A DNA stretch of 64,000 bases, taken from assembly GCA_020073705.1 (NCBI GenBank), contig JAIQES010000020.1:1-64000 (forward strand). The letters are read 5' to 3'. This document shows, piece by piece, positions 30,635 through 46,635 of the stretch. Below the pieces are notes generated by a model that was not told where the DNA came from, did not search any database, and saw only the letters and a program-made list of their open reading frames with translations. The stretch is from Terriglobia bacterium. GTDB taxonomy: Bacteria > Acidobacteriota > Terriglobia > Acidiferrales > UBA7541. The position numbers and the translations under genes were made by a program. Position 1 is the stretch's first letter. Every line of letters begins with the position of its first letter.

Positions 30635-30808
30635 CGCTTGTCGCCGCGGAACCCTCGCCGGTTCGCTGTGGTCTCAACTTGACGACGGGTCTTTTTTCCT
30701 ATCGGATGGATTAGATGATTTTCCGGGCTTTGTTCGCGCCCAGCATGGTAAGAGCTGTCGGTGCGGCCCCGCTCAGTCACGCATGGCTGCATGCACAAAG
30801 GAGGAACT

Positions 30809-32305
30809 ATGCAATTGGCAACAGCCGACCCAGGTGCGTCCCTGGTCGGGTACCGTGATCTGCGCGAGTGGCTTGCGGCCGTGGAGGCGATGGGCGAACT
30901 CAAGACGGTCCGGGGCGTGCCTTGGGATCGCGAAATGGGCGCTATGGTGGATATGGCCTATCGGGCCAAGGGCAGCGGCAAGTGTCCCGCCATTTTGTTT
31001 GACGATGTGCCGGGGTATCCTGCCGGCTACCGGTGTCTCTACGGCATGATGGCTTCGCCTCGCCGCTTTGCTTTTACCGTCGGAGGCATTGACGTAAAGA
31101 CCGCGCACAACAACATCGAGTACCTAAAGCAATACCGTGCTCGGATGAAGGACATCCAGTACATCCCGCCGGTCTTTGTGGATCGCAGTCCCATTTTCGA
31201 AAACGTGATGGAAGGAGACGATATTGACCTATTCAAGCTGCCCGTGCCCATCCATCACGAACTGGATGGCGGTCGTTACATCGGCACGGCGTGTGGCGTC
31301 ATCACGCGTGACCCCGACACTGGCGGGCTGAACTGCGGCACCTACCGAATCCAAGTCCACGATGCGAAGACGTGCACCTGCTACATCTCCCCGGGCAAAC
31401 ACGGGCGGCTTCACCGCGACCAATACTTTGAGCGCGGCCAGCATTGCCCGGCGGTCGCTGTCGTCGGCATAGATCCCATATTGTTCCTTGCGGCGCGCTA
31501 CCAGGTCCCCCCGGGACTGTCGGAGTTGGATTGGGTCGGCGGCATGCGCGGAGAGCCGCTCGGGGTGGTGCGCAGCAAGTACACGGATCTGCCGATTCCT
31601 GCGAACAGCGAAATCGTGCTCGAGGGCGAGTTCCGCGCCGACGAACGGCGCCTGGAAGGACCGTTCGGCGAGTGGCCGGGCTACTACGCGGGCGGAAAGA
31701 TGGAGGAACCTGTCTTCCGCATCAAGCGAGTCCTATTTCGCCATCAGCCGATCCTGACCTGCGCGGCTTCCATGAAACCTCCGCACGCTCACCTCTACGA
31801 GCGCGCGTTTACGCGCTCGGCAGCGTTGTGGGAAGGTCTCGAAAAGGCTTCCGTTCCCAACCTCGCTGGCGTGTGGGTGCATGAAGCGGGTGCCGGGCGC
31901 ACGTTCAACGTGGTCAGCATCAAGCAGCGGTACTACGGCCACTCCCGGCAAGCAGGACTGCTGGCCAGCCAGATGGTCCCGGTCGCCTACGGCAACCGCT
32001 GGACAATTGTGGTTGACGACGACATTGATCCATCCCGGCTCGAGGAAGTGATCTGGGCCATGGGCACGCGTTGCGACCCCAAGCAAGATCTGGAGATCAT
32101 GAGCAAATGCTGGAGCAGCAAGATTGACCCGATGGTTTTTGACCAGCACTACTACAACTCCCGGGTGGTCGTTGACGCGTGCATTCCTTACGAGCATCGC
32201 AACGACTTCTCTCGCGTGGCCGAAACCAGTCCGGAGTTGCGAGAAAAGATGCTCACGAAATATCGGCGCGATTTCCACGACCTTCTGGGCGAAGAGCTGG
32301 TCTGA
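30809..32305 (+). CDS. UbiD-family prenyl-FMN decarboxylase (copy 1)
   Basis: 498 residues from ATG 30809 behind AAAGGAGGAAC; an upstream in-frame ATG at 30761 lacks such a site. UbiD enzymes (de)carboxylate unsaturated or aromatic acids with prenylated FMN. The N-terminal domain (YRDLREWLAAVEAMGELKTV), the FMN/metal half (HHELDGGRYIGTACGVITRD, GTYRIQVHD) and the catalytic motif EGPFGEWPGYY are intact. Arg180, Glu283 and Glu288 correspond to the R173-E277-E282 set of fungal Fdc1. Nothing identifies the substrate. The amidohydrolase follows 48 bases downstream, so the pair may act in sequence. No ubiX (prenyl-FMN synthase) gene is nearby. Confidence 0.92.
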   Translation: MQLATADPGASLVGYRDLREWLAAVEAMGELKTVRGVPWDREMGAMVDMAYRAKGSGKCPAILFDDVPGYPAGYRCLYGMMASPRRFAFTVGGIDVKTAHNNIEYLKQYRARMKDIQYIPPVFVDRSPIFENVMEGDDIDLFKLPVPIHHELDGGRYIGTACGVITRDPDTGGLNCGTYRIQVHDAKTCTCYISPGKHGRLHRDQYFERGQHCPAVAVVGIDPILFLAARYQVPPGLSELDWVGGMRGEPLGVVRSKYTDLPIPANSEIVLEGEFRADERRLEGPFGEWPGYYAGGKMEEPVFRIKRVLFRHQPILTCAASMKPPHAHLYERAFTRSAALWEGLEKASVPNLAGVWVHEAGAGRTFNVVSIKQRYYGHSRQAGLLASQMVPVAYGNRWTIVVDDDIDPSRLEEVIWAMGTRCDPKQDLEIMSKCWSSKIDPMVFDQHYYNSRVVVDACIPYEHRNDFSRVAETSPELREKMLTKYRRDFHDLLGEELV

Positions 32306-32353: not shown

Positions 32354-33331
32354 TTGATCATTGATTTCCAGCACCACTACATTCCGCAAAAACTTGCCGA
32401 GCAGCATGGGGCGCGCCGGGGCGAGAAGGTAGTCCTTACCGAAGGCGGGACTCCCAAATTCACGATGCACGATCGCGTTTTCGATCTCCAGCAGCAACTC
32501 CGCGACTTGGAAGTGTCAGGCATGGACCTGGCCGTGCTCTCCTGCCCGTTGGGCTGGGATGCTTCGCTGGAGGATTGCCAGCGGATCAACGATGAGTACG
32601 CTGCGGTGCAGCAGGAACACGGAGATCATTTCGCGGGACTCGCGCACGTCCCGGTCCACGAAGGGAAGACAGCCCTGCGGGAATTGGACCGCGCCATCAC
32701 GCAGCTTGGCTTGCGTGGCGTCACAATCATGTCGCAAATTAAGGGAGCAACACTCGACGCGCCCGCTTTTCGGGAGTTCTTTGCGAAGACGGTCGAACTC
32801 GATATTCCCATCTTCGTGCATCCCGCGCTCGTGCCCCACGGCTACGCCCACGCGATGGATTACGACTTGATTCGGATCATCGGGCGGGAACTCGACCTCT
32901 CCCTAGCCGTAACCCGGCTGATCGCGGGTGGCGTCCTGGACGCATTCCCCGCGCTCAAGCTGGTGATGGCCCACTTCGGAGGAGGCATTGCCGCGATCAA
33001 GGAAAGATTAGTCAACAAAGCCTATCGCTTTGGCACGCGGCTATCGCGGCCGTTCGACGACTACTTCGGCCAACTCTATTTCGACATGGCCGGGTTCGAG
33101 GGAGGCCCCGCCGCGCTTCAGTGCGCCCTGACCGGGATTAAGCCGGAGCGGCTCGTTTTCGCCACCGACTATCCGCAAGATTTCACCGGTGTCGTCACGA
33201 ATACGGGAAAAGGATCGGCGCAGATTCGCGACTACATCCAGAGCGTTCGCGATTTGCCGTTGCCGGCAGCCGCGATTGAAGCCATGCTCGGAGGCACGGC
33301 GGCGCGGCTGCTGAAGCTCCGCGTTTCGTAG
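32354..33331 (+). CDS. ACMSD-like amidohydrolase (amidohydrolase_2)
   Basis: 325 residues from TTG 32354. It is a TIM barrel of the metal-dependent decarboxylase/hydrolase group that includes 2-amino-3-carboxymuconate-semialdehyde decarboxylase and resorcylate decarboxylases. The first strand reads DFQHHYIP: the usual H-x-H is Q-H-H, so the first metal His is Gln6 while His8 is kept. Other site residues are His in PIFVHPALVP (about 156), His in VMAHFGGG (about 214) and Asp in VFATDYPQD (about 275). It probably removes CO2 from, or hydrolyses, a ring-derived acid. It lies between two UbiD genes on the same strand. Confidence 0.88.
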   Translation: MIIDFQHHYIPQKLAEQHGARRGEKVVLTEGGTPKFTMHDRVFDLQQQLRDLEVSGMDLAVLSCPLGWDASLEDCQRINDEYAAVQQEHGDHFAGLAHVPVHEGKTALRELDRAITQLGLRGVTIMSQIKGATLDAPAFREFFAKTVELDIPIFVHPALVPHGYAHAMDYDLIRIIGRELDLSLAVTRLIAGGVLDAFPALKLVMAHFGGGIAAIKERLVNKAYRFGTRLSRPFDDYFGQLYFDMAGFEGGPAALQCALTGIKPERLVFATDYPQDFTGVVTNTGKGSAQIRDYIQSVRDLPLPAAAIEAMLGGTAARLLKLRVS

Positions 33332-33664
33332 GCGGGGCTCAGCACACGGCTGAGTAGACTCTTTCTGAGGCTAAGATTACGCGGCAGCAAGAGAGGCTCG
33401 TCAGACGGGCAAGAACGCGCTGTCGGAATCCCGCTGATCTCGCTGGGGGCTGCTCTGGTGGCAAATTTGTTGTCTTGAAGGTAGGAGACGCTTAAGATAC
33501 GCGAGCCAGAGGTCTAAATCGGGAATTCCGGATAAAACTATAAGCGCTGAACAGCAGATGCGTTGATTGCTCATGCAAGATTCCGATCGAGTAATTAGTC
33601 CTATAATTGGAAGTTATTGGCCGCGACTGACGCAATAATATCCGTATGGAGATCAGGAGGTCTC
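33332..33664. other. Spacer upstream of second UbiD
   Basis: About 330 bases without a gene. The AGGAGG ribosome site at 33655-33660 belongs to the next gene; an ATAAGC half-site resembling the 28289 palindrome lies near 33540. No repeat or RNA gene recognised. Confidence 0.4.
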
Positions 33665-35155
33665 GTGCACGATTTGCGCAATTGGTTGAAACAAGTCGAC
33701 GAGATGGGAGAGTTGAAGGTCATTTCCCAACCGCTCGACTGGAATGAGGAAACCTCGGCCCTGGATTATATGGTCAGCCAACGCGAAGGGGCGCCGGCAC
33801 TGTTATTCGAAAACATCAAAGGCGCTGCTCCGGGCTTTCGCGCCTTGTATAACCTGTTTGGGACCAGCAAGGAGCGTATTGCGGCTGCCTCTGGATTTCC
33901 TCGGGGCAAGAGCCTTACGGAGTTGATTCAGATAGTGCGCGACGGCTTTGGCACCAAAATCCCTCCCGTGAAGATTCCAGCCGAGCGAGCTGTGGTGAAC
34001 GAAAACGTGCTCCTCGAAGATAAGGCCGATATCACCATTTTCCCCGCGCCCAAGATGTGGCCTCTCGACGGGGGCCGGTACCTTGGAACTTGGGATCTTT
34101 TTGTCACCCGCGATTTGGAGGATGGCCATTTCAACGTCGGCACCTACCGCCAGATGGTCAAGGGCCCCAAGGAATTGTTTGTCTATTGGTCTCCGGGCAA
34201 GGATGCCCGGCTGCAAGCAGAGCGTTACTGGCAGCGCGGCCTCTCGTTCCCGGTAGCCGCCGTCTACGGCCCTGAACCGCTGATGTTTATGGTCAGTACC
34301 CAGACTCTGCCGAAGACAGAGTCGGAATATGATTACGCCGGAGGATTGGCCGGGCAACCTGTGGAAGTTTTCGAAAGTCCTGTTACAGGGCTCTTGCTGC
34401 CTGCCAATGCGGAGATCATTATTGAAGGCATGATGCGGCCTGGAAACAATGCGATGGAAGGGCCGTTCGGGGAGTTTACGGGATATTATGGCCGGCCCGA
34501 AGCCTCTACGCCGATCATTGATGTGAAGTGCGTTCGTTACCGCAACAATCCCATCCTCACTTGCGCGCTCATGGCAGACTATCCAGCTTGCGAACAGAGC
34601 CTGTTCTTCAGCATCGTTCGTTCCGCCGGGATCTGGGCCGACTTGCAAAAGCTTGGAATTCCGGGCATTCAGGGAGTGTTCGCCTTTCCGGAAGCCGCAG
34701 GTGGGTTTGGCGCCACGGCAGTCTCCATCGAGCAACGCTATGCCGGCCACGCTTCCCAAACCGCCGCTCTAACGGCTCAAGTGCCGGCCGGCGCCTATTA
34801 CGGCAAATACGTTATCGTAGTAGATGAGGACGTGGACCCGACTGACATTCATCAAGTTTTATGGGCGATGACCACACGCTCGGACCCCGCCACCGACATC
34901 GATATCTTGCGCTCGACCTGGTCCACCTACCTGGATCCTACCAAGAATCCTCCCGAGGAGCGCCCCTACGGCTCCAAGGCCTTGATCAATGCTTGTAAAG
35001 AGCACAAACATTTGAAGCAGTTTTCGAAGCGTTCCCGTTTACGGCGGGAAGTTTATGAAAGACTCGTCAAGCGGTGGAGTGAATTTGGTTTTAAGTTTCC
35101 GCCTCCCGTGATTCGCCATTTTGAGGAGGATGAGGCTTCCGCTGTCCGGAAGTAG
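33665..35155 (+). CDS. UbiD-family prenyl-FMN decarboxylase (copy 2)
   Basis: 496 residues from GTG 33665, chosen because AGGAGG lies just upstream and the protein then begins MHDLRNWLKQVDEMGELK, as other UbiD proteins do; the open frame reaches a TTG at 33617. Catalytic residues are Arg162 (FNVGTYRQM), Glu265 and Glu270 (MEGPFGEFTGYYG). FMN and metal loops are conserved (LDGGRYLGTWDLFVTRD, SPGKDARL). It is only distantly similar to the other three copies, so it should act on a different acid or be a different subunit. It ends the plus-strand arm and converges on the cytochrome c gene. Confidence 0.92.
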   Translation: MHDLRNWLKQVDEMGELKVISQPLDWNEETSALDYMVSQREGAPALLFENIKGAAPGFRALYNLFGTSKERIAAASGFPRGKSLTELIQIVRDGFGTKIPPVKIPAERAVVNENVLLEDKADITIFPAPKMWPLDGGRYLGTWDLFVTRDLEDGHFNVGTYRQMVKGPKELFVYWSPGKDARLQAERYWQRGLSFPVAAVYGPEPLMFMVSTQTLPKTESEYDYAGGLAGQPVEVFESPVTGLLLPANAEIIIEGMMRPGNNAMEGPFGEFTGYYGRPEASTPIIDVKCVRYRNNPILTCALMADYPACEQSLFFSIVRSAGIWADLQKLGIPGIQGVFAFPEAAGGFGATAVSIEQRYAGHASQTAALTAQVPAGAYYGKYVIVVDEDVDPTDIHQVLWAMTTRSDPATDIDILRSTWSTYLDPTKNPPEERPYGSKALINACKEHKHLKQFSKRSRLRREVYERLVKRWSEFGFKFPPPVIRHFEEDEASAVRK

Positions 35156-35259: not shown

Positions 35260-35883
35260 TCATTTCGCCGCAGGTTTTGCTTGATTCCAATAGGGTTGCC
35301 AGGTGCCGTCCTTATTCGGCGTTGATTGTGGGGGGTCAGGATAGAATCCATGACGATTCGGCATCTGGACCTCCGGCAGACTGTTCTTATCCATAACATC
35401 GATCTCTTTAATGATGCCGTTCCAGTAAAGCAGAAGGGCGGTCAGAGCGTAGATATTGTCTGGGGTGAGATTCTTCTCTAGGGGGAATGGCGGCATGGCG
35501 CGCTGGATGTAGTCCCAAATCGTCGTCGCATACGGCGAATAGCTCCCTACGGTTTGAACAGGGATAGGGGTGTTGAGTGTGCCTATGCCTCCCACCAAAC
35601 GCGGCCACGGGTATATGCCCTCTCCGTTTTTTCCATGACAAGCAGCACACTTGGCGGCATAGATCGTCTCGCCTTCCTTGGCAGTTCCGCGTCCGGGAGG
35701 GAGTTCCTTTCCGTCGGAACCTACAACACCATCCGAGGGGTGCAATTCTGCTTCCGTCGGCGCCCTCCCCACGTTATAGATAGGGAGCTGCGCCATGGCT
35801 GTCCCGCACGCCAACAGAACCATCACCGGCAATAGAAAATTAGATTTTGCCGCCAGAATAGTACGAGTTCTTTGACGGGCCAT
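35260..35883 (-). CDS. Exported c-type cytochrome partnering SoxC-like enzyme
   Basis: 207 residues from ATG 35883 (an in-frame ATG at 35928 is also possible). The N-terminus MARQRTRTILAAKSNFLLPV with a hydrophobic core to GTAMAQ is a signal peptide. One haem site C79-A-A-C-H83 is followed by a cytochrome-c fold; RAMPPFPLEKNLTPDNIYAL holds the probable Met axial ligand. The C-terminal region is long and Pro-rich. The gene overlaps the 3' end of the SoxC-like gene, the usual arrangement of sulfite dehydrogenase pairs (SorAB, SoxCD), so it should take electrons from the molybdenum enzyme in the periplasm. Confidence 0.88.
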   Translation of the reverse strand: MARQRTRTILAAKSNFLLPVMVLLACGTAMAQLPIYNVGRAPTEAELHPSDGVVGSDGKELPPGRGTAKEGETIYAAKCAACHGKNGEGIYPWPRLVGGIGTLNTPIPVQTVGSYSPYATTIWDYIQRAMPPFPLEKNLTPDNIYALTALLLYWNGIIKEIDVMDKNSLPEVQMPNRHGFYPDPPQSTPNKDGTWQPYWNQAKPAAK

Positions 35884-37264
35884 TGGTGTTGTACAGCGTG
35901 TTGTACAGCGCATCTTGGACGCTCCCATCTGGCTTCACTCGCCATGGCAGAATTGGATTATTGAGAAACTCCATAATTGCTGCGGTTTCCCACCAGTGCT
36001 CAATTTCCTCGCCGGTATAGTGGGGGGTTACCTGATCGCCCCACAGTTTGGCTAGCTCCAGCATCGTCGGTTGAATGTCACCGTATTCATTGGTGCAGCG
36101 AGACATAATCACAGTCTCTGCTCCGGACCAATTCCAGCCCAGGCGAAATCGCGTAAATGCCTTTCGAAACACGGGCTGCTGAAGTTGCGCGTCCTTCCAA
36201 GTCCGCCCGCCGTCGGTGCTTACTTCCACTCTGCTGATCGCGCCTCGACCGGACCAAGCCAAGCCGGAAATCTCATACAAGCCGCGCTCCGGCAGATGGT
36301 GCGCGTCCGATGGGTAGGTGATTAAGGATTTCGGTCCGACTTGAGATTCGTACCAGCTCGCCTTGCCGTTCGGTTTCAAATTGGTGTAGGAGCTGGTTTC
36401 CCGCCCGAGATAGTAAGGTTTGTCCACCAACTTAATGCGCTTCACGTACTTCACGTTGTTGACCCCTTGCCAACCGGGAACGACCAGCCTTAATGGATAA
36501 CCCTGTTCGCGCCGCAGCGCCTCGCCATTTTGACCGTACGCCACGATCACGTCGTCCATGGCCTTGGCGAGCGGAAAGCTCTTCGCATGCCGACAAAGGT
36601 CCGCCCCTTCCGCAACCAGCCAGCTCGCCTGCTTTTGCACACCGGCTCCCTTGAGCAGCAGGGAGAGGGGAACTCCCGTCCATTCACTGGTAGAGACTCT
36701 TCCATGCATTGCTTGGATTACAGTCAAGTCGGCCCTCCCTAACTTCTGGTCGTGCAACATGGACTTATAATGCATCAGGCCGCTGTTTCCAGTGCACTCC
36801 AAGAAGTGAATTCGGGATACAGAAGGGAGGCGCTTCAATTCCTCCATGGTGAAGACCAGGGGACGGTCCACCATGCCGTAAATCATGAGAGTGTGCTGCC
36901 GGGGATCAATGTTCGTGATATGCATATCGTGCTGAACCAAGTAATGATAAGAGGATGGTGTGATGACTCCGATCGAATCCTGAAGCGGGGTCAGGTTTCG
37001 TAGTCCCGTGGCGCCATTCCATCCTACACTTGGTATGCGTACAGTGGTCTCGTAGCGAGAACGCCCGCCGTATAACAAATCCTGAATGTTGGGTTCGTCG
37101 GGGGTAACGCCCAGCTTGGTAACGCCCATGCTGGTGTTGGGTTCACCGGGGGTAACGCTCGCGAGCGCGTTGCCATTCGCGAACGGTATCGCTCCCACGG
37201 CCAAGCCGGCCATAGCTGCAGTTCCCTTCAAAAATCCTCTACGATCAGACATCTTGGAATTCAT
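35840..37264 (-). CDS. SoxC/SorA-like periplasmic molybdopterin sulfite dehydrogenase
   Basis: 474 residues. The Tat signal DRRGFLKGTAAMAG (Arg8-Arg9) fits export of a folded molybdoprotein. The sulfite-oxidase-fold Moco domain (about 90-320) has the Mo-ligating Cys157 in HFLECTGNSG, followed by TSEWTGVPLSLLL and YGQNGEALRREQGYPLRLVV. The dimerisation domain (about 330-440) has EVSTDGGRTWKDAQL. It oxidises sulfite or a sulfane-type group, passing electrons to the cytochrome c encoded behind it. No soxA, X, Y, Z or B genes are present, so it is not a full Sox system. The extreme N-terminus contains a short repeat (VTPGEPN and VTPDEPN). Confidence 0.88.
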   Translation of the reverse strand: MNSKMSDRRGFLKGTAAMAGLAVGAIPFANGNALASVTPGEPNTSMGVTKLGVTPDEPNIQDLLYGGRSRYETTVRIPSVGWNGATGLRNLTPLQDSIGVITPSSYHYLVQHDMHITNIDPRQHTLMIYGMVDRPLVFTMEELKRLPSVSRIHFLECTGNSGLMHYKSMLHDQKLGRADLTVIQAMHGRVSTSEWTGVPLSLLLKGAGVQKQASWLVAEGADLCRHAKSFPLAKAMDDVIVAYGQNGEALRREQGYPLRLVVPGWQGVNNVKYVKRIKLVDKPYYLGRETSSYTNLKPNGKASWYESQVGPKSLITYPSDAHHLPERGLYEISGLAWSGRGAISRVEVSTDGGRTWKDAQLQQPVFRKAFTRFRLGWNWSGAETVIMSRCTNEYGDIQPTMLELAKLWGDQVTPHYTGEEIEHWWETAAIMEFLNNPILPWRVKPDGSVQDALYNTLYNTNGPSKNSYYSGGKI

Positions 37265-37453: not shown

Positions 37454-38695
37454 TCAGACAGCCCCAGCGGCCCGTAGCTGCTGCATTTCCGACGCGCTCA
37501 AGCCCAATTCCTTCGAATACACTTCTTCATTATGCTGGCCGACCGACGGTGCGGGCCGCGCGACGCGCAGCCGCTCATTGTTGATGAGTGCGAAGCCTCC
37601 CGGATATTTCATCCGCACACCGGATGAGGGGTCCTCCATTTCCGTCCAGAAGTTCCTGGCGGCAAGGTGCGGATCGCCATAAATGTCCTTGATAGTATGC
37701 ACCGGATACCCGAGGATTTCCCGCTTCACGGCGCCCTCGTAGAACTCCTGCTTGGTTAGCGCGGAAAGAAAGCGCCCGATGGGGGCTTCGAACGCGTCCA
37801 CTTCGTCCTGTGTAACCGCGGTGGCATCGAAGTTGTCCCAATTCACCTGCTTGAGCCATTCCGGGGCGGAATTTGTTTCGTCCATCCAGGCTACGAGTTG
37901 CCGGTTGGCGTGACGGCCGGCGGCTCCGCCGTACAGGCAAAAGTTGATCCACCCGTCCTGGCAGGGCCAAAACATTCGCATCTTGGCGCCTGTGACGCTC
38001 CGGCCAGTTAAAAAAATTCCCGCGCGCTCGGGGTTGGTGCGATTTAGATCCCAAAAGGCAGGGGCGTGAGCGAGAGCCGCCATCACAGCCGCCTGTGCGG
38101 AAACGTCCACATGCTGACCTGTGTTCATCAGGCTGCGATAGGCAAGCGCTGTAAGCGCACCCATCGCCGCTTCGGCTCCCACCCACATCGGCGCCTGGGG
38201 AACGGTTACGCGCATTGGTTCGCCGTCCTTTTCTCCTGCAAGCGACATCGCGCCGCCCAGAGCCATGATCTCCAGATCCGAACCCGAGAAATTCTGATAG
38301 GGTCCATCTTGCCCGTAGGGTGTAATGGAAACCCAGATGAGTCTCGGGTTCCGATGTTTTAGCTGGGCATAACCGAGACCTCGTTCGTTCAGCGACCCTG
38401 GCGGAAAAGATTCCAGCAGGAAGTCTGCACCTTTCACAAGGCGGACCAGCAGGTTCTGACCCGCGGGGTTTTCAAGGTCCAGCGTAATGCCCCGCTTGTT
38501 CGCATTGAAGGCCAGCCAGTGCAGACTTTGGGGCTCCCCGCGCGCAGGCCGCAGGAGTGGGGGAGTGCTGCGCGAAGGATCTCCTGTGGGAGGCTCTACC
38601 TTAATGACGTCGGCTCCCAAATCGCCGAGGATCTTGCCGCATGAGAAACCGAGAGGCCCGGTCAAATCCAGGACGCGATAAGGTGTCAGCAGCAA
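37454..38695 (-). CDS. Family III CoA-transferase (CaiB/BaiF type), catalytic Asp replaced
   Basis: 413 residues with the interlocked-ring CoA-transferase pattern: TPYRVLDLTGPLGFSCGKIL, DLGADVIKVEPPTGDPSR, NANKRGITLDL, FNFS/GSDLEIMALGG and the central VDVSAQAAV. In formyl-CoA transferase the residue corresponding to Ala202 is the catalytic Asp169, which forms the acyl anhydride. With Ala there the subunit should be inactive alone. Two-subunit family III transferases in aromatic pathways (BbsEF, phthalate SptAB) exist, and the second transferase at 41670-42881 may be its partner. It is last in the minus-strand operon from 42881, 75 bases after the divergent UbiD. Confidence 0.9.
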   Translation of the reverse strand: MLLTPYRVLDLTGPLGFSCGKILGDLGADVIKVEPPTGDPSRSTPPLLRPARGEPQSLHWLAFNANKRGITLDLENPAGQNLLVRLVKGADFLLESFPPGSLNERGLGYAQLKHRNPRLIWVSITPYGQDGPYQNFSGSDLEIMALGGAMSLAGEKDGEPMRVTVPQAPMWVGAEAAMGALTALAYRSLMNTGQHVDVSAQAAVMAALAHAPAFWDLNRTNPERAGIFLTGRSVTGAKMRMFWPCQDGWINFCLYGGAAGRHANRQLVAWMDETNSAPEWLKQVNWDNFDATAVTQDEVDAFEAPIGRFLSALTKQEFYEGAVKREILGYPVHTIKDIYGDPHLAARNFWTEMEDPSSGVRMKYPGGFALINNERLRVARPAPSVGQHNEEVYSKELGLSASEMQQLRAAGAV

Positions 38696-38770
38696 TGCTC
38701 ACCTGGCAATGGAACACACTTCCTGGCGATGGAAACCAACGCAGGCCCCTTCCAAAGCCAACGATTGAAT

Positions 38771-40351
38771 TTACCGGCCCGTGCGAGCCAATACTTCGAC
38801 CCAGCCATGCATCCGCTGTTTCGCTCGCTCGACATCGGACTTCGAGAAGAATTTCAAGGGATCAACCCTGTCCACCGGATAGACGGGCCGATGAAAGTCC
38901 TGTTCGAAACCATAGGGCACCGTCGCGTCAACACCCATGCCGCCCTCGAAGCGGGTATTCGAGGCGGTCCATTCCCGCTCGCCGGCCGTCATGCGCTCCT
39001 GCGGCTGGAACGTCTGCCCAATGCCACCCGGCAGGGGATTCAGAATATCGGTGTGGGGATTTACGCGTGTGGTCAGGCACCACATGATGTCGTCCATGCT
39101 GTAGATATCCACATCGGGACTCACGGCGATTGCCAGTCGCATTCCCTGATTGCACGCCAGAATGGCTGCCAGGAAGTTGCGTTGCCAGCCCTCCTCGATC
39201 TTGTTGCGCTTCTTGACCTGGATGATGACTCCGCCCCAGTCCGTCATGCAGTAGGGGATGTTGACATCCTGAATGATGCCGGGTTGCAGACGCTCGCAGA
39301 GCTCGTAGATGGCCGCCTCACGGAGTGTCGTATCAATGTTGCTGTCGTCAGCGGTATGAACGCCCAGCGGAAAAATGATCGGTCTGCTACTGCGCTTTCG
39401 CATCGTAATCGCGGTCACGTGGAACGTCGGCGCTTTGTACGCCTTGCCCATATAGCCGGCCCATTCCGGATGAAAGAAGTGCTTGCCTTGCACGCCTGCT
39501 TTTTCTGCTTCGGCCGTTTCGTAGCGCTTATCTCTTGGGTGCAGCAAACCTTCCAGCACATATTCCGATTCGGCGATGGCGTACGCATCCACCGTGCGCG
39601 CCTTCACGATCTTCACGGGACTGCCTTGGATAGCGCCGGCGACGCCCACTTCGTCACAACCTTTTGGCAGAATTACGTAGTCAAAGCCCGACCCCGCGAC
39701 CAGCGTGCACGCCGGAGGGACTCCGAAACACATCGTGAGGGGAATTGGCTTCTCGTCCTTGTAATGTTCGGTGATGATTTGCCACATGTGGGAACCCGGA
39801 GAGGCCTGGAAGGTGCCCACGTTCCCCCAGCGAAAATTCATCCGGTTGTAACCGATGTGGCTGCCGCCGCCGAAATAATCTCCGATGACGCAACTGATCC
39901 CGCTCCCAACGGTCAGCTCCGGCTCCAGCGCCGTATGACGAATGGCGGTGATGTACTTGTTGACATCCAGATCGTCGGTAATAACCTCTTCCTGGCATGG
40001 GGCTTCACTCTGCTGAATTTCGACCGGCGGAACGGGGTGCGTCATCGCGCGGGCAATGTGTTTGGTGCGGTTCTGCGGGCCTTGAAAACCGAACAGCTTA
40101 TCCACCACGTGGATGTCCGCCAGAAGGTTCGTAATGGCGCGCGCATGGGGCTTTCCTTTCACCTTGTTGAACAGCAGCACAGGGCCCCCGTCCAAGTGCT
40201 TCTGCAGGCCGGTGATCTCCAGATCGGGATCCACCTCCACGTCGGTCTTCAGAACGTCGCCCTGCGCATCCAGCCACTCCAGGGCTGAACGGAGGGAAGT
40301 AATATCTTTTTTCGTCTCCGCTTTTGGTGTTTCGCTTCTGACTATGGACAC
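38771..40351 (-). CDS. Divergent UbiD-family decarboxylase (copy 3), candidate aroyl-CoA decarboxylase
   Basis: 526 residues, the longest of the four copies. UbiD landmarks are present: NVKG-type loop FNKVKGKPHA, GISCVIGDYFGGGSHIGYNR, SPGSHMW and a C-terminal DIMWCLTTRVNPHTDI. Arg170 (GYNRMNF) aligns with the catalytic Arg. The catalytic motif is altered: where the other copies have EGPFGEW, it reads HFFHPEW, keeping the second Glu (Glu296) but with His291 in place of the first, after an insertion of about 20 residues. It lies between the MFS and a CoA-transferase gene in one operon, as expected of a phthaloyl-CoA-decarboxylase-like enzyme acting on a CoA thioester. Confidence 0.88.
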   Translation of the reverse strand: MSIVRSETPKAETKKDITSLRSALEWLDAQGDVLKTDVEVDPDLEITGLQKHLDGGPVLLFNKVKGKPHARAITNLLADIHVVDKLFGFQGPQNRTKHIARAMTHPVPPVEIQQSEAPCQEEVITDDLDVNKYITAIRHTALEPELTVGSGISCVIGDYFGGGSHIGYNRMNFRWGNVGTFQASPGSHMWQIITEHYKDEKPIPLTMCFGVPPACTLVAGSGFDYVILPKGCDEVGVAGAIQGSPVKIVKARTVDAYAIAESEYVLEGLLHPRDKRYETAEAEKAGVQGKHFFHPEWAGYMGKAYKAPTFHVTAITMRKRSSRPIIFPLGVHTADDSNIDTTLREAAIYELCERLQPGIIQDVNIPYCMTDWGGVIIQVKKRNKIEEGWQRNFLAAILACNQGMRLAIAVSPDVDIYSMDDIMWCLTTRVNPHTDILNPLPGGIGQTFQPQERMTAGEREWTASNTRFEGGMGVDATVPYGFEQDFHRPVYPVDRVDPLKFFSKSDVERAKQRMHGWVEVLARTGR

Positions 40352-40377
40352 GCGCCGTGCTCCTTTTCATCCTGACT

Positions 40378-41673
40378 TTACTTTGCGGATGCCAACCCAC
40401 ATCTTACAGTTTTCGAATCTATTGAAAAATAGAGAATGACCATGGCCAAGTTCACCACGCTGATGAATCCGAATGCGCCCAGATAGCGGCCACGAAAATG
40501 AGCGATCAGAAAACCGATTATCGTGGGGGCTAGCCCACCGATTAAGTTTCCGATCCCCACGAAAATTCCGGTGGCGCGCCCAATTTGCTTTGGGAGCGCC
40601 AGCGATTGCATGATGGAAGCGTTCATGGCTCCGTAAATCATAGGAGCGGCTAAAGACGTAACCAGCAAGAGTACGGACGCGATAGCGCTGGAAACAGCCA
40701 CAGAGGCTAAAATCAGGGCGGCGACCACTGCGCTGGTAAGAGTGCCCACCAGCGCGGGTCGCATCGTTCGATCCGCAAAGTATCCCAGCCCCAAGGACAC
40801 CACGATCGGCAACGTATAGCTCAATGCCACCCATCCTCCGAGGGCACTGAACGGAATCCCGCGCACCTGCGTCAGATAGGTCGGAATCCAAGTCGTCAGA
40901 CCGAATAGCGTGGCCACCGCGCCCACATGGCAAAGCGTGACGACCCAAAATTCGAAATTGGCGAGCAGCGACCCAAGCTTGATCGAGCGCCCAGCGTGGA
41001 TTTCCTCAGGCTCAGTTGCGGGAAGACTAACGATGTGCTCGCGTTCCTCGCGATTGGCACGGCCGGATTGCGCCGGTGTATCCGGGGCCAGAAACAACAG
41101 CATGGGCATTAAAACCAGGACTGACCCAGCACCCAGCGCCCAGAAGACCACACGCCACCCGCCTAATGAAATCAGGAGAGTCGCCGCAGGCAGGCCGAGG
41201 GCGAGCCCCACCTGATTGCCATTGACCCAAAGGGACTGGATGCGGCCCCGCTCACGAATGGGGAACCAGCGTCTTGCGTATGTATTGCATACCGGCCAAA
41301 TGCATCCCTCGGTGAGCCCGAGCACGAAACGAGCGGCGTAAAGCTCGCTGACACTATGACTGACCGCGCACCACATGGTCGTCAGCGCCCATCCGCACAC
41401 ACCGAACATCGCCGCGCGACGCGGGCCCAGATGGTCCACGACAAATCCCCATACCAGAAGTCCCCCACCGTAACCGATAAAGAAAATCGTGGATAGGAAT
41501 CCCATGCGCGCCTGCTGGCCCATAAGCGTCATATCGGAAAGAAACTTTCGGTCGGCAAGAACCACGGCGATGTTCGTCTTATCGAGCTGGTTGACGACGA
41601 CAAGCATAAACAGCGTCGGCGCGACATACAACCAGCGCGCGGCGGTGCGCTTCGCTCCTGGCATTGATGTCAA
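40378..41673 (-). CDS. MFS transporter, anion:cation symporter (ACS) type
   Basis: 431 residues and 12 predicted membrane helices. The start (LYVAPTLFMLVVVNQLDKTN followed by VVLADRKF) and the loop GFVVDHLGPRRAAMFGVCGW are those of the ACS branch, which imports organic anions such as phthalate, tartrate, glucarate and hydroxybenzoates. LTEGCIWPVCNTYARRWFP is another ACS motif. It overlaps the CoA-transferase gene at 41670-42881 by four bases and is followed by the divergent UbiD 26 bases away, so it most likely imports the acid that those enzymes activate and decarboxylate. Confidence 0.9.
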   Translation of the reverse strand: MTSMPGAKRTAARWLYVAPTLFMLVVVNQLDKTNIAVVLADRKFLSDMTLMGQQARMGFLSTIFFIGYGGGLLVWGFVVDHLGPRRAAMFGVCGWALTTMWCAVSHSVSELYAARFVLGLTEGCIWPVCNTYARRWFPIRERGRIQSLWVNGNQVGLALGLPAATLLISLGGWRVVFWALGAGSVLVLMPMLLFLAPDTPAQSGRANREEREHIVSLPATEPEEIHAGRSIKLGSLLANFEFWVVTLCHVGAVATLFGLTTWIPTYLTQVRGIPFSALGGWVALSYTLPIVVSLGLGYFADRTMRPALVGTLTSAVVAALILASVAVSSAIASVLLLVTSLAAPMIYGAMNASIMQSLALPKQIGRATGIFVGIGNLIGGLAPTIIGFLIAHFRGRYLGAFGFISVVNLAMVILYFSIDSKTVRCGLASAK

Positions 41674-42881
41674 GAGAACACGCCCTGTTCCTGCAATCGC
41701 TGAAATTCCTCCGGCGGGAGCCCTAGCAACGATTGGAAGACAAACGAGTTGTGTTCGCCCAAACAGGGAGCGGGGCGCCGAATCCCGCCCGGCGTTTCAT
41801 CCAATTGGTAGGAGACCATGCGATAGTGATGCAGCCCCATTTCCGGATGTTCCATCTCCTGAAAGATTCGGCGGGAGGCGATCTGCGGGTCGGAAAAAAG
41901 GTCCCGCATCGTATTCACCGCGGCAGCATGGATTCCGCGATTTTGCAGCAGTGCCATCACCGCATGTGCGTCCATGTCTCGCGTCCAGTCTCCGATCAAT
42001 TTGTTTAATGAGGTCTCGTGCTGTTTCCGTTGTGAGAGGGAATGAAAGCGCTCATCGGAAAGCCACGACGGCTGGCCGGCGGCGTGACAAAACTTGGTCC
42101 ACTCCTCGTCATCCCAGCAACTGATCACGCACCAGTGGCCATTGCGGCAAGGGTAACACCCATGTGGCGCGGCAGCGGGATCGCGATTGCCTGCACGATC
42201 CTCGACAACACCATTGCCTGAATAATCCAGCAGCGCACTGCCGAGAAACTGCAAGCCCGCCTCATATTGAGACAGGTCAATGTAGACGGACTTATTCGTC
42301 CGCCGCTGGTGGTCCAGCGCGGCTAGAATTGCGGCGCCCCCGAACGCTACCGCGATGAAATCAACATAGGGTCCGTAAATAAACTGCGGTGGCCCGTCCG
42401 GTTCACCGATGAAGTGGGTAAAACCACACAAAGACGACAGTTGCGTTCCGAAACCCGGATGGCGCGCATAGGGGCCCGTTTGGCCCATGTTGCTCGTGCT
42501 CAGCATAACCAGAGAGGACTTGCGCTCGCGCAGCGTCTGATACCCCAGGCCTAACCTGGCCACCACCCCGGGCCGCATATTTTCAATGACCACGTCGGCC
42601 CAGTCCACCAGACGGTACGCCAGAGCGAGCCCGTCGGGATGCTTGATATTGAGCGTCACGCCGTACTTGGAGTCGTTAAAAAACGCGAAGCACCCCGAAA
42701 GGTTTAGGCCGACTTTGCCGTTCCTATAGGGCGGATATTGCAGGCGAAAACCATCCGGGCGGTCCTGGGATTCCAGATGAACGACCTGCGCGCCGAAATT
42801 TGCGAGATACTTGCCGATACAAGGCCCGGCGGCATAGCCGCCAAGTTCGAGAACCTTCAGATTTTGGAGGGCATCTTTCAT
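41670..42881 (-). CDS. Family III CoA-transferase with Glu at the catalytic position
   Basis: 403 residues of the CaiB/BaiF family: LKVLELGGYAAGPCIGKYLA, NFGAQVVHLESQDRPDGFR, KYGVTLNIKHPDG, ENMRPGVVARLGLGY and VYIDLSQYEAG. The residue matching catalytic Asp169 of formyl-CoA transferase is Glu207; a carboxylate is kept, so it may be the active partner of the Ala-containing transferase at 37454-38695. It starts the minus-strand operon CoA-transferase, MFS, UbiD, CoA-transferase and overlaps the MFS gene by four bases. The likely reaction is CoA transfer from succinyl-CoA or a similar donor to an aromatic or unsaturated acid. Confidence 0.9.
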   Translation of the reverse strand: MKDALQNLKVLELGGYAAGPCIGKYLANFGAQVVHLESQDRPDGFRLQYPPYRNGKVGLNLSGCFAFFNDSKYGVTLNIKHPDGLALAYRLVDWADVVIENMRPGVVARLGLGYQTLRERKSSLVMLSTSNMGQTGPYARHPGFGTQLSSLCGFTHFIGEPDGPPQFIYGPYVDFIAVAFGGAAILAALDHQRRTNKSVYIDLSQYEAGLQFLGSALLDYSGNGVVEDRAGNRDPAAAPHGCYPCRNGHWCVISCWDDEEWTKFCHAAGQPSWLSDERFHSLSQRKQHETSLNKLIGDWTRDMDAHAVMALLQNRGIHAAAVNTMRDLFSDPQIASRRIFQEMEHPEMGLHHYRMVSYQLDETPGGIRRPAPCLGEHNSFVFQSLLGLPPEEFQRLQEQGVFS

Positions 42882-43051: not shown

Positions 43052-43528
43052 CTATTCGACAAGCTCCCGCAAGAGCTTTTTCTGTTCCATGGGATCCGCG
43101 CGCCGTTTGTACAGAATGGCGCTGGTAACGTACGATCCCGGTTCATACTCCTCATTGGCTTCGTCGGCCAGCACCTGCTCGACGCGACAGTTGAACTTGG
43201 CATTCTGAGGCGAGCAAATCATTTCTCCCGCCAGTTCCTCGACGGTGCCCTTGATGTAGTAAGCGACCCGCTCATCAACGATCACAATCGAAAGCTTGCC
43301 ATTTCTTCGCATGTTGTTCGTGGTGGTGGTATTGCCATACACCGCGAGCCGGATATTGCGATCATCTTTGGCGATCACTTCAAAATAGCTGAGCATCGCG
43401 GGATGCGGCCACCCGCCGGCATCCACTGTGCAAATGACAATCGCCTTTTCGGCGTGCGTCTGCAGATCGCTACCTGCCAGCCGCTGATACAGGTCCGCGG
43501 GCAATTTGTTTCCGACGACTTTGCTCAT
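43052..43528 (-). CDS. PNPOx-fold (pyridoxamine 5'-phosphate oxidase-like) flavin/cofactor-binding protein
   Basis: 158 residues of split-barrel fold: KAIVICTVDAGGWPHPAMLS (strand pair and cofactor loop), RLAVYGNTTTTNNMRRNGKL, SIVIVDERVAYYIKGTVEEL and CRVEQVLADEANEEYEPGSY. Proteins of this class bind FMN, F420 or haem and include flavin reductases and oxidases; true PNPOx residues for pyridoxal phosphate are not evident. It is a single gene between the CoA-transferase operon and the DASS transporter, with an operator-like palindrome ahead. A role in redox handling of a pathway intermediate or flavin supply is inference. Confidence 0.8.
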   Translation of the reverse strand: MSKVVGNKLPADLYQRLAGSDLQTHAEKAIVICTVDAGGWPHPAMLSYFEVIAKDDRNIRLAVYGNTTTTNNMRRNGKLSIVIVDERVAYYIKGTVEELAGEMICSPQNAKFNCRVEQVLADEANEEYEPGSYVTSAILYKRRADPMEQKKLLRELVE

Positions 43529-43619: not shown

Positions 43620-45059
43620 CTAGCGGATTCCGATGAGCGGCCAGTAAAACGGCACGAGCAGCAGCAACACCAGAGACTCCACGATCGTTAAGCACAGCCC
43701 CACTCGAAACAAATCCCGGGCCTCGAAATACCCGTATGAGTAACCCGTAACTATTACCCCCGATTGGTACACAAAGATTTTCCCGCCCGCCGCAAACGCC
43801 CAGACCAGCCCGAGCGGCAGCACCGCCAAACCATTCGATTTGGCGAAATCCATTAGCGGAGGGATGGACGTAGCGATCGTCGAGAGTTCACTCCCTAAAA
43901 AGATGTGATAGACGAACGCCGTCCAATACGGCACGAGCGCTGTAGTAAAGCCATTGGTAATGAGCGGTCGCATCCAGGCGAACATGACCGTGGTCATGGC
44001 TTGCAGCGCTTTGGTCTGCATTAACACGATGCCCATGCTGATCGCTGCGCCCGTGAAGATGATCGGGGAGTAGTTGACCCGTTTCAAATCCTCCTCGTTG
44101 AGCACTCCGATGCCGGGGACAGCCGCAAGCAATCCAATGCCGATACCAATCACCGCGGGAGAGATGTGGTGAAGCAGATCGGTGGCCCACAACGCGATCG
44201 CCACGAGCATCAAGAACAGCGATTTCTTCTCGGTGAAGCTCCACGGCCCCATCTTCTTCAGTTCACTGTCGAGGAACGCTGCCCCTTCCTCCAGGGCCTC
44301 GTTCTCCGGCGGGTAGAGCCACAACACCAACCGCCAGGTGAAGAAAATCACGACCACTGCAACAGGGAAAAACGCCAGCAGCCAGACGCTCCAGTAAACC
44401 TCAATACCCGTCGCCTTCTGGATCAGACCACGGCCGAGGATGGTAGTGGCGCCGGCCATGACGATCTTGTCGAACATGCCCGCCGTGTAGGTCAACGTTA
44501 TAAACAGTCCTCGCCCGATATTGCTGCCGGTTCCCAGGCCGAAGACTTGCATCAGCCCGAGCGCGACCGCGGCCATGATGACTACGCAGGCCATTCCCGA
44601 AGGCACAAGAAACGTCAGCACGAACGATGTGAGTATCAACCCCAGGAGCAGGCGCGAGTAACTGGCTCCCACGCGCCGCAAGACAAGATATGCCAGGCGG
44701 CGAGCCAAGCCCGACTTCGTGGCCATGATGCCGAGCAAACTTGCGCCGAACAGGAACCAGGTCGTGGAATCGGTGAATCCGGAGAATGCGGATTCCAGCC
44801 GCACAATCTTGAAGATCCAGAAGAAATAACACCCCAACAGTCCTGTGATTGCAAACGGCAGAATCTCCGAGATCCACGCGATGATCATAAAGGACGCAAC
44901 CGCCAGGGCGTGCTTGGCCGTTGCCTCCAGCCGAAGAGGCGCAAACCACAACGCCACCGGCACGGCGATCGCCAGCAAATATCCAGCCAGTTTCCGGGGA
45001 GACCTCAGGAACCCTCCAGCTTTCCCGAAGTCCTCTGCTGCCGGAACTCCGTTCGCCAT
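43620..45059 (-). CDS. DASS/SLC13-family divalent anion:Na+ symporter
   Basis: 479 residues with about 11-12 membrane segments. Typical features are ISEILPFAITGLLGCYFFWI, the first re-entrant loop region with FGASLLGIMATKSGLARRLA, a second repeat with FTGAAISMGIVLMQTKALQA and SELSTIATSIPPLMDFA near the C-terminus, where DASS proteins carry SNT/TP-type substrate motifs (here altered). The family imports dicarboxylates, sulfate and similar anions with Na+. Its ATG overlaps the stop of the upstream UbiD gene (TGATG at 45059), so it is translationally coupled to that decarboxylase, suggesting a shared substrate. Confidence 0.88.
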   Translation of the reverse strand: MANGVPAAEDFGKAGGFLRSPRKLAGYLLAIAVPVALWFAPLRLEATAKHALAVASFMIIAWISEILPFAITGLLGCYFFWIFKIVRLESAFSGFTDSTTWFLFGASLLGIMATKSGLARRLAYLVLRRVGASYSRLLLGLILTSFVLTFLVPSGMACVVIMAAVALGLMQVFGLGTGSNIGRGLFITLTYTAGMFDKIVMAGATTILGRGLIQKATGIEVYWSVWLLAFFPVAVVVIFFTWRLVLWLYPPENEALEEGAAFLDSELKKMGPWSFTEKKSLFLMLVAIALWATDLLHHISPAVIGIGIGLLAAVPGIGVLNEEDLKRVNYSPIIFTGAAISMGIVLMQTKALQAMTTVMFAWMRPLITNGFTTALVPYWTAFVYHIFLGSELSTIATSIPPLMDFAKSNGLAVLPLGLVWAFAAGGKIFVYQSGVIVTGYSYGYFEARDLFRVGLCLTIVESLVLLLLVPFYWPLIGIR

Positions 45060-46534
45060 CAGAGTTTTCCTTTAGTCTGCACGGATGCCGTCGTGCCTTT
45101 CGGATTGGGCTGTGCAAGTATGGCGCCCCACTTCTTTTCGGCCGCGCGGCGGACCTCCGGACTAGATTCCGCTACAGGCGGAAAATCCTTGAGCCACTCG
45201 TACGGACGGCATGCATCAATGACCGCGCGTGAACTGTGGCCCTTTTGTCCCTTCGGAATGATCGGATCGAGCACGCCGCTCCAACTGCGGCGAACAATCT
45301 CAATATCCAGCTCGGGATTGGATCGCGTTGTGAGCGCCCACAACACATCATTGATATTTGTGACGTCAATGTCATCATCCACTACAATGACATACCGGCC
45401 CAAGTAAGCGCCGGAGTGGCAATAGGCGGCGATCATGCCCGCCTGGCGCGCATGGCCCGGATAGCGTTGCTTGATCGAGACGAAGGTCAGCAGCCGGCTT
45501 CCTCCCGCCTCGTGACACCATACGCCACGCACGTCGGGCACACCTGCGGCCTCCAGTTCCTGCCACACCATCGCCGATCGCATATAGCAGCGCATGTAGT
45601 TGAACTCGCACGGGGGGCGAGTGGGAGGCGCGCCGAGAAGGATTGGGTTATTCCGATGGTAGAGCCGCTTGACCTTCATGGTGGGCTCCGGCCTCATCGA
45701 ACTGGCGTAATACCCGGTCCACTCGCCAAACGGACCTTCGTCACGATCCTGGCCGGGAATCGCTTCGCATTCGACAACGATTTCCGAGTTGGCCGGTATT
45801 GGCAAGCCAGTATATTCTCCTTGAATCACTTGAACGGGATGCCCTTGGAGTCCGCCCACCCAATCGTACTCGGATACACCATGCGGAATTTCCATGCCGC
45901 CCGCCAGAAACAACAGGGGATCGTGCCCGAACGAAACGGCCACCTTGCAGGGCTGGCCTTTTGCGAAATATTTCTCCCGCATGATGCGGCCATGTTTCCC
46001 CGGGGAGATATAAAAGCCCAACGTATCGTTGTCGTGTACCATCACGCGATACGTTCCGACGTTAACCCAGCCGTCGTCCGGGTCCCGCGTGATATCCACC
46101 GAGCCGGTCCCGATATAGCGCCCTCCGTCCAACTCATGCCATTTGGGCGTCGGAAACTTCAACATATCAATCGCTTTGCCCTCGAAGACGTTTTCCATGA
46201 CCGGCCCGTCTCGGACAAACTCGGGCGGAATGTATTTGACGTCAGAAATGTGGCGTTTGATGTCTTTAACGAATTCAATGCGTGAATAGTTTGTGTCCAT
46301 GTAAAGCGTCATCGCCAGCCGCTTAAGCGTGTTCAGCGTGTTGGACAGCACGCGGAAACCTGGCGGGTATCCTTTGATGTTGTCAAAGAGCAGGGCAGAG
46401 CTATCTTCTCCGCGATGGTGGCCCAGTTCGGTGATCGCTCCGATCTCGACGTCCCAATCGGCTCCGTCAATGTGTTTAAGTTCACCCAGTTCTTCCGCAC
46501 TCTGCATCCAACCACGCAAATCTCGAGATGACAT
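45059..46534 (-). CDS. UbiD-family prenyl-FMN decarboxylase (copy 4)
   Basis: 491 residues from ATG 46534, preceded by GGAGGAGACCAGG; an in-frame upstream start at 46567 lacks a good site. The full triad is conserved: Arg163 (VNVGTYRVMVHD), Glu266 and Glu271 (DEGPFGEWTGYYAS). It resembles copy 1 along its length (RDLRGWMQSAEELGELKHID, ELDGGRYIGT, YISPGKHGR, KQRYPGHARQAG) more than copies 2 or 3, so copies 1 and 4 are probably paralogues. It opens the right-hand operon with the DASS transporter and lies 106 bases from the right 36-bp repeat, mirroring the cupin at the left end. Confidence 0.92.
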   Translation of the reverse strand: MSSRDLRGWMQSAEELGELKHIDGADWDVEIGAITELGHHRGEDSSALLFDNIKGYPPGFRVLSNTLNTLKRLAMTLYMDTNYSRIEFVKDIKRHISDVKYIPPEFVRDGPVMENVFEGKAIDMLKFPTPKWHELDGGRYIGTGSVDITRDPDDGWVNVGTYRVMVHDNDTLGFYISPGKHGRIMREKYFAKGQPCKVAVSFGHDPLLFLAGGMEIPHGVSEYDWVGGLQGHPVQVIQGEYTGLPIPANSEIVVECEAIPGQDRDEGPFGEWTGYYASSMRPEPTMKVKRLYHRNNPILLGAPPTRPPCEFNYMRCYMRSAMVWQELEAAGVPDVRGVWCHEAGGSRLLTFVSIKQRYPGHARQAGMIAAYCHSGAYLGRYVIVVDDDIDVTNINDVLWALTTRSNPELDIEIVRRSWSGVLDPIIPKGQKGHSSRAVIDACRPYEWLKDFPPVAESSPEVRRAAEKKWGAILAQPNPKGTTASVQTKGKL

Positions 46535-46635
46535 CCTGGTCTCCTCCCCAATTCGGCCAGCATCCAATAGCGGCTCCGAGAGAATCCGCTGCGCCGGGCG
46601 GCGCTTATCTTACTCTAAAGTAGCGGCTAGAGTCT

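Follow-up and report, generated by a model that had tools for sequence, protein, structure and literature searches.

A putative o-phthalate to benzoyl-CoA operon in a Terriglobia bacterium of the phylum Acidobacteriota

Operon structure and its key enzymes

The window analysed here covers bases 1-64,000 of contig 45, which is 87,048 bases long and comes from a Terriglobia bacterium. The draft genome of this organism has a size of 3.79 Mb, consists of 78 contigs and has a completeness of 97%. It carries an operon of four minus-strand genes that encode a UbiD-family decarboxylase, two class III CoA-transferase polypeptides and a major facilitator superfamily (MFS) protein. In the order of transcription, the genes are:

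41670-42881, minus strand: CoA-transferase III, putative catalytic subunit of an enzyme like succinyl-CoA:phthalate CoA-transferase (open reading frame (ORF) and Pfam match far above the cut-off)
40378-41673, minus strand: probable MFS importer (MFS_1, 177 bits)
38771-40351, minus strand: UbiD family, predicted phthaloyl-CoA decarboxylase (Pcd; ORF and Pfam match far above the cut-off)
37454-38695, minus strand: CoA-transferase III, putative non-catalytic partner subunit (ORF and Pfam match far above the cut-off)

The first-pass annotation had described these four genes with a 4-base overlap and short gaps, with which ORFs and Pfam matches agree. The first CoA-transferase gene and the MFS gene overlap by 4 bases, followed by gaps of 26 bases between the MFS and UbiD genes and 75 bases between the UbiD and second CoA-transferase genes. 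The own genome was searched by family, while a scan of genome contigs yielded 268 stretches that encode relatives. Locus counts given below refer to the best 80 of these (68% identity and up).

The UbiD protein matches the solved phthaloyl-CoA decarboxylases 8pmk and 8oz5 with 931 and 930 bits across nearly its full length, the next-best UbiD of any kind reaching 163 bits. Its identity to the two copies encoded on plasmid 2 of Aromatoleum aromaticum EbN1 is 74.9% and 73.5%, and its UbiD_N, UbiD and UbiD_C domains, which form a three-domain UbiD architecture, all score over the cut-off. An alignment of 82 homologues contains 209 columns with a conservation of 97% or more. Of these, 51 differ from a Pcd-like outgroup of about 50% identity, and the protein from the window keeps all 51 of these diagnostic columns. 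Residues R170, H188, E234, E278, E283 and E296 are present in all 82 Pcds. R170, E278 and E296 align with the canonical UbiD catalytic Arg and EGPFGE positions, with 12 extra residues between E278 and E296 that the canonical motif lacks. In a tree obtained by a short search without bootstrap, the protein was placed in the phthaloyl-CoA decarboxylase clade and not in a free-acid clade. There, it groups with sequences from Acidobacteriota gp4 and Gemmatimonadota (SH-aLRT 98), apart from the characterised betaproteobacterial Aromatoleum tip. Judged from its sequence, the protein is predicted to be a phthaloyl-CoA decarboxylase, a kind of enzyme that acts with prenylated FMN, K+ and Fe2+. UbiX is encoded by a single gene of the genome, located on contig 54, with a score over the subfamily cut-off.

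Comparison of the CoA-transferase polypeptides (TRANSFERASES) yielded identities of 50.7% between the 41670-42881 protein and EBN1_RS22140 and of 52% between the 37454-38695 protein and EBN1_RS22145. The two EbN1 genes lie side by side and adjoin pcd, a position from which we infer that they encode the transferase assayed in that strain. The best PDB matches are chain B (204 bits) and chain A (212 bits), respectively, of benzylsuccinate CoA-transferase (BbsEF). Across loci, the catalytic Asp was found in 59 of 59 homologues of the 41670-42881 type, where it is Asp174 in the window protein, and in none of the 59 homologues of the other type. When aligned with YfdW of E. coli, the 37454-38695 protein has Pro in place of this Asp, and chain A of BbsEF also lacks it. 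The aligned YfdW residue is presumably the catalytic Asp169. Because of the chain-specific matches and the strict split in the catalytic residue, the two polypeptides are most simply interpreted as the subunits of a single heteromeric SptAB/BbsEF-type class III enzyme. The two genes named in the first-pass annotation are present, but probably do not encode separate transferases. NCBIfam names for both proteins denote distant equivalogs only; they match the SptAB/BbsEF pair better than enzymes of the oxalate or carnitine type. In 60-62 of the 80 loci, pcd occurs together with both types of transferase gene, several others being cut by contig ends.

Substrate of the operon and fate of its product

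Contig 55 of the same genome encodes BoxB (862 bits, cut-off 499) and BoxC (928 bits, cut-off 712), together with a regulator of the anaerobic-benzoate type and a Mo enzyme resembling 4-hydroxybenzoyl-CoA reductase. It also carries four adjacent genes of the class-I benzoyl-CoA reductase (BCR) type, which belong to the right families and all score below the equivalog cut-offs (L015 2220-4705). BcrB and BcrC of this contig are 58-66% identical to the products of genes that follow pcd-spt in Actinomycetota, and the BCR-type subunits appear to form a divergent benzoyl-CoA-reductase-like group. BoxA was not found in the genome, which encodes two haem-copper oxidases.

In the hot-spring genomes HR10 and HR08 (L033, 4773-9.6 kb; L034, 927-5.7 kb), boxB is located directly upstream of ppox-spt-pcd-spt on the same strand, which suggests a single operon covering the steps from phthalate up to the epoxidation of benzoyl-CoA. 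boxB and boxC were both found near pcd in two Alphaproteobacteria (L057 and L072), and bcrB/bcrC follow pcd-spt in L091, L101 and L106. Of 50 pcd genomes, 32 had a BoxB score over the cut-off, as did 27 of a separate sample of 101 relatives of the window genome, the two samples being unmatched for phylum. In 40 of the 50, BoxB exceeded its cut-off or a BcrC-like protein scored 220 bits or more. The boxB or bcrBC genes beside pcd in relatives and these frequencies of BoxB and BcrC speak for benzoyl-CoA as the product of the Pcd route.

Four things were observed directly: the gene content, the families to which Pcd and the transferase pair belong, the patterns of catalytic residues and the conservation of the set. 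We consider conversion of o-phthalate to benzoyl-CoA to be the best explanation of the operon, with a probability of about 0.72. Phthalate would be imported by the MFS protein, by a sodium/dicarboxylate symporter of the DASS family encoded upstream, or by both. The heteromeric transferase, with its Asp on the 41670-42881 subunit only, would then shift CoA from succinyl-CoA to phthalate. Unstable phthaloyl-CoA would be caught by Pcd and converted to CO2 and benzoyl-CoA with prenylated FMN supplied by the genome's single UbiX, and benzoyl-CoA would be passed to BoxB, BoxC and the BCR-like gene products of contig 55. The biochemistry of the homologues in Aromatoleum and Thauera has been described (PMC13040137, PMC6644310, PMC9516798). 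Uptake, CoA activation and UbiD-dependent decarboxylation of an aroyl-CoA had been proposed in the first-pass annotation, and in view of the Pcd clade and the transferase matches this was right in substance.

That proposal had left phthalate and isophthalate side by side. o-Phthalate is the most likely substrate of the two, and the isophthalate part was not upheld. UbiD enzymes acting on a CoA thioester also occur in isophthalate and terephthalate pathways, but the characterised isophthalate route activates its substrate by an ATP-dependent CoA ligase (PMC9516798, PMC13040137), and the decarboxylase of that route reportedly resembles phenolic acid decarboxylase subunit C (PMC8269228). The transferase of EbN1 accepts o-phthalate but neither of its isomers, and those of EbN1 and PA01 showed zero activity on isophthalate or terephthalate (PMC13040137). 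The proteins examined between 26 and 46.6 kb include no acyl-CoA ligase, and hence no isophthalate:CoA ligase. With a UbiD of the Pcd clade and activation of the transferase type, a pathway for isophthalate or terephthalate is highly improbable. More weight, albeit as a rather unlikely alternative, is given to the same chemistry acting on another ortho-dicarboxylated aromatic, such as a substituted phthalate or a naphthalene- or pyridine-dicarboxylate, phthalate being only a side substrate. The transferase of the characterised system is highly substrate specific (PMC6644310), and the subunits that would set this specificity share only 51-52% identity with the EbN1 pair. Genome titles place the gene set in soil, groundwater, ocean and hot springs, and several free-acid UbiDs and cupin proteins are encoded nearby. 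Such a substrate is opposed by the 73-75% identity of Pcd to the characterised clade, by the 51 diagnostic columns and by the boxB or bcrBC genes beside pcd in relatives, which point to benzoyl-CoA. A chance grouping of a free-acid UbiD with unrelated oxalate/carnitine-type transferases could draw on the commonness of CoA-transferase III genes and on the distant NCBIfam names. It has a negligible probability, because the set is conserved over many phyla, and was ruled out by the Asp split and the synteny, in line with the placement of Pcd and the BbsEF-type pairing.

Several points weigh against conversion of o-phthalate to benzoyl-CoA. At only about 51% identity to the EbN1 pair, the transferase subunits could differ in acid specificity. 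The window does not contain ubiX, whereas 37 of the 80 pcd loci have one nearby. With no BoxA found and BCR subunits below the equivalog cut-offs, the fate of benzoyl-CoA is incomplete. In addition, the host genome is only a draft of 78 contigs, and substrate, transport direction, complex formation and benzoyl-CoA fate are all deduced from genomic data.

As a tentative extension, phthaloyl-CoA decarboxylation may feed the oxygen-using box route, besides or instead of ring reduction. Hints are boxB in line with the operon in the two hot-spring genomes, boxB and boxC near pcd in the two Alphaproteobacteria, BoxB and BoxC of the own genome, its two haem-copper oxidases and the 32 BoxB-positive pcd genomes; the own genome without detectable BoxA speaks against it. 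If true, phthalate could be used in a CoA-dependent manner where oxygen is present or fluctuates, with no need for a phthalate dioxygenase. The route would then be indigenous to Acidobacteriota and would predate industrial phthalates.

Extent of the operon, transport and neighbouring genes

Three genes upstream of these four and four neighbouring plus-strand genes complete the locus:

45059-46567, minus strand: UbiD2, UbiD decarboxylase of the free-acid type, whose gene probably heads the transcription unit (PF01977)
43620-45059, minus strand: DASS sodium/dicarboxylate symporter (PF00939, 174 bits)
43052-43528, minus strand: PPOX-type flavin-binding split-barrel protein (PF01243)
28373-29743, plus strand: cupin protein, exported-looking (PF07883)
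30761-32305, plus strand: UbiD3, free-acid type, in a divergent neighbouring cluster (Pfam/NCBIfam profiles)
32354-33331, plus strand: Amidohydro_2 protein, ACMSD-like superfamily (PF04909)
33617-35155, plus strand: UbiD4, free-acid type (Pfam/NCBIfam profiles)

The three further UbiDs, the DASS symporter and the ACMSD-like amidohydrolase had been noted before, and all are present at their loci. Since the UbiD2 and DASS genes share a TGATG stop/start overlap, the PPOX gene comes next and the order dass-ppox-spt-pcd-spt recurs in L030 and L031, UbiD2, DASS and PPOX probably belong to the same transcription unit as the four genes, the start of which very probably lies upstream. A recent mobile island was rejected, as G + C content and GC3 of the 26-46.6 kb region match the rest of the window. 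A search for repeats of the neighbouring tRNA-Leu gave nothing useful (14 bases at best), so that a recent insertion has left no sign. Despite this, pcd was not found in five same-genus genomes (search at E 1e-30).

The MFS protein had been labelled as ACS-type. The MFS family holds, whereas the label reflects a resemblance at subfamily level, all NCBIfam matches being below the cut-off. Its nearest subfamilies, also under the cut-off, are of the PgtP/galactonate type and anion-symport. An assignment as phthalate permease by close homology was rejected: the listed plasmid proteins are only 25-28% identical, which gives support at family level only. No homologue was found in the 80 related loci, and within this sample the insertion of an MFS gene between a transferase subunit gene and pcd is confined to the window. 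The protein is probably an importer for the aromatic dicarboxylate. The DASS symporter, which adjoins pcd operons in L030, L031, L086, L088 and L092, is a candidate second importer.

PPOX homologues occur in 7 of the 80 pcd loci and lie between boxB and a transferase gene in L033 and L034. Proteins of this type recur beside pcd or ubiX (window 43052-43528, L033, L034, L091, L105 and L106), and a role in flavin or prenylated-flavin handling is conceivable. A 56% homologue of the Amidohydro_2 protein is encoded beside pcd/spt in L092, and a 66% homologue of the cupin protein in L029, immediately upstream of ubiX-spt-pcd-spt. At L029 6008-9863 and L109 17065-20000, CMD-like, ornithine-cyclodeaminase-like, double-cupin (gentisate-dioxygenase-like) and DapA-like genes recur as a set. 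It adjoins pcd in L029 or UbiD2/DASS in genome G258, the family names being assigned partly by eye. A molybdopterin protein resembling sulfite oxidase is encoded twice together with a cytochrome c (window 35260-37264 and L025 18285-19899), each time near UbiD genes, and a pair of the same kind is found near pcd in L032.

The own genome contains nine UbiD genes, including one of the menaquinone type and one Pcd. UbiD2, UbiD3 and UbiD4 belong to the VdcC/phenylphosphate-carboxylase-beta-like lineage and are thus of the free-acid type. UbiD2 features the canonical EGPFGE and NVGTYR motifs, its phenylphosphate-carboxylase-beta/VdcC-like scores being below the equivalog cut-offs; relatives occur in 23 of the 80 pcd loci. 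For UbiD4, homologues of about 50% identity were found in the pcd loci L052, L060 and L078. UbiD2 and pcd do not form an obligate pair in the class, as G258 has UbiD2 (83%) and DASS (68%) with no Pcd in a stretch of 30 kb. From the additional UbiDs, which are indeed present, several carboxyl groups on the substrate or a whole family of substrates had been proposed. Because the three are of the free-acid type, this is a possibility rather than a finding; one dicarboxylate, o-phthalate, accounts for the operon itself. In L066/L068, on plasmid pU120 of Aromatoleum buckelii and on EbN1 plasmid 2, pcd is present twice per plasmid, the copies being identical or nearly so and some 10 kb apart; a UbiD2-like gene lies between them, in EbN1 along with an ABC transporter.

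Distribution and comparison with known systems

The 80 loci derive from Acidobacteriota, Gemmatimonadota, Chloroflexota, Actinomycetota, Bacillota, Thermodesulfobacteriota, Myxococcota and several classes of Pseudomonadota, as well as from unplaced hot-spring genomes and SAR324. Loci with Pcd and SptAB were found in at least eight phyla. Within the window's class the distribution is patchy: seven of 101 genomes have any match (E 1e-30), three of them with a Pcd of at least 70% identity (the own genome, G083 and G096). Foreign contigs can occur in bins of metagenome-assembled genomes, an example being L087, which is filed as Klebsiella.

Anaerobic phthalate degradation has been described in a few denitrifying Proteobacteria and in sulfate reducers, and one cited title presents the route as evolution of a xenobiotic pathway. 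Phthalate is a building block of plasticizers and the host is a soil-type acidobacterium. With the gene set present in many bacterial phyla, this 'recent pollutant' pathway extends far beyond the handful of laboratory strains that served to elucidate it, and these occupy one tip of the Pcd tree. Presence across phyla documents spread, not age as such. The natural substrate, perhaps phthalate itself, and operation under oxygen become directly testable, and Pcd together with the Asp/no-Asp transferase pair offers a marker for phthalate users in metagenomes. The wide spread and the box linkage lift the finding above routine. No report of the pathway in Acidobacteriota was found in the literature surveyed, which was covered in part.

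The window Pcd shares 930 bits with 8pmk and 8oz5, but differs in its host and in belonging to the Acidobacteriota/Gemmatimonadota clade. L021, L022 and L023 of the same class (genomes G071, G079 and G099) encode a Pcd-like UbiD, which in L022 is followed by both CoA-transferase types, resembling the window. However, these proteins are only about 50% identical to the window Pcd and form a long separate branch, possibly representing a sister enzyme for another aromatic dicarboxylate.

BbsEF (9fn0) is likewise a two-subunit class III transferase, and the window subunits are nearest to different chains, the Asp-less one to chain A; its substrate is another one, and the window pair is linked to pcd. 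The o-phthalate cluster on EbN1 plasmid 2 (NC_006824) encodes UbiX, Pcd, two CoA-transferases and a TRAP transporter. Its Pcd is 73-75% identical to that of the window, and the transferase subunits correspond one-to-one to the pair beside EbN1 pcd. The EbN1 cluster is plasmid-borne with insertion sequence elements, has the order ubiX-pcd-transferase-transferase and relies on TRAP/ABC transport. The window, in contrast, has the order transferase-MFS-pcd-transferase, with DASS, PPOX and UbiD2 upstream and no local ubiX. Taken together, the pathway itself is already known, while its host and genetic setting appear to be new.

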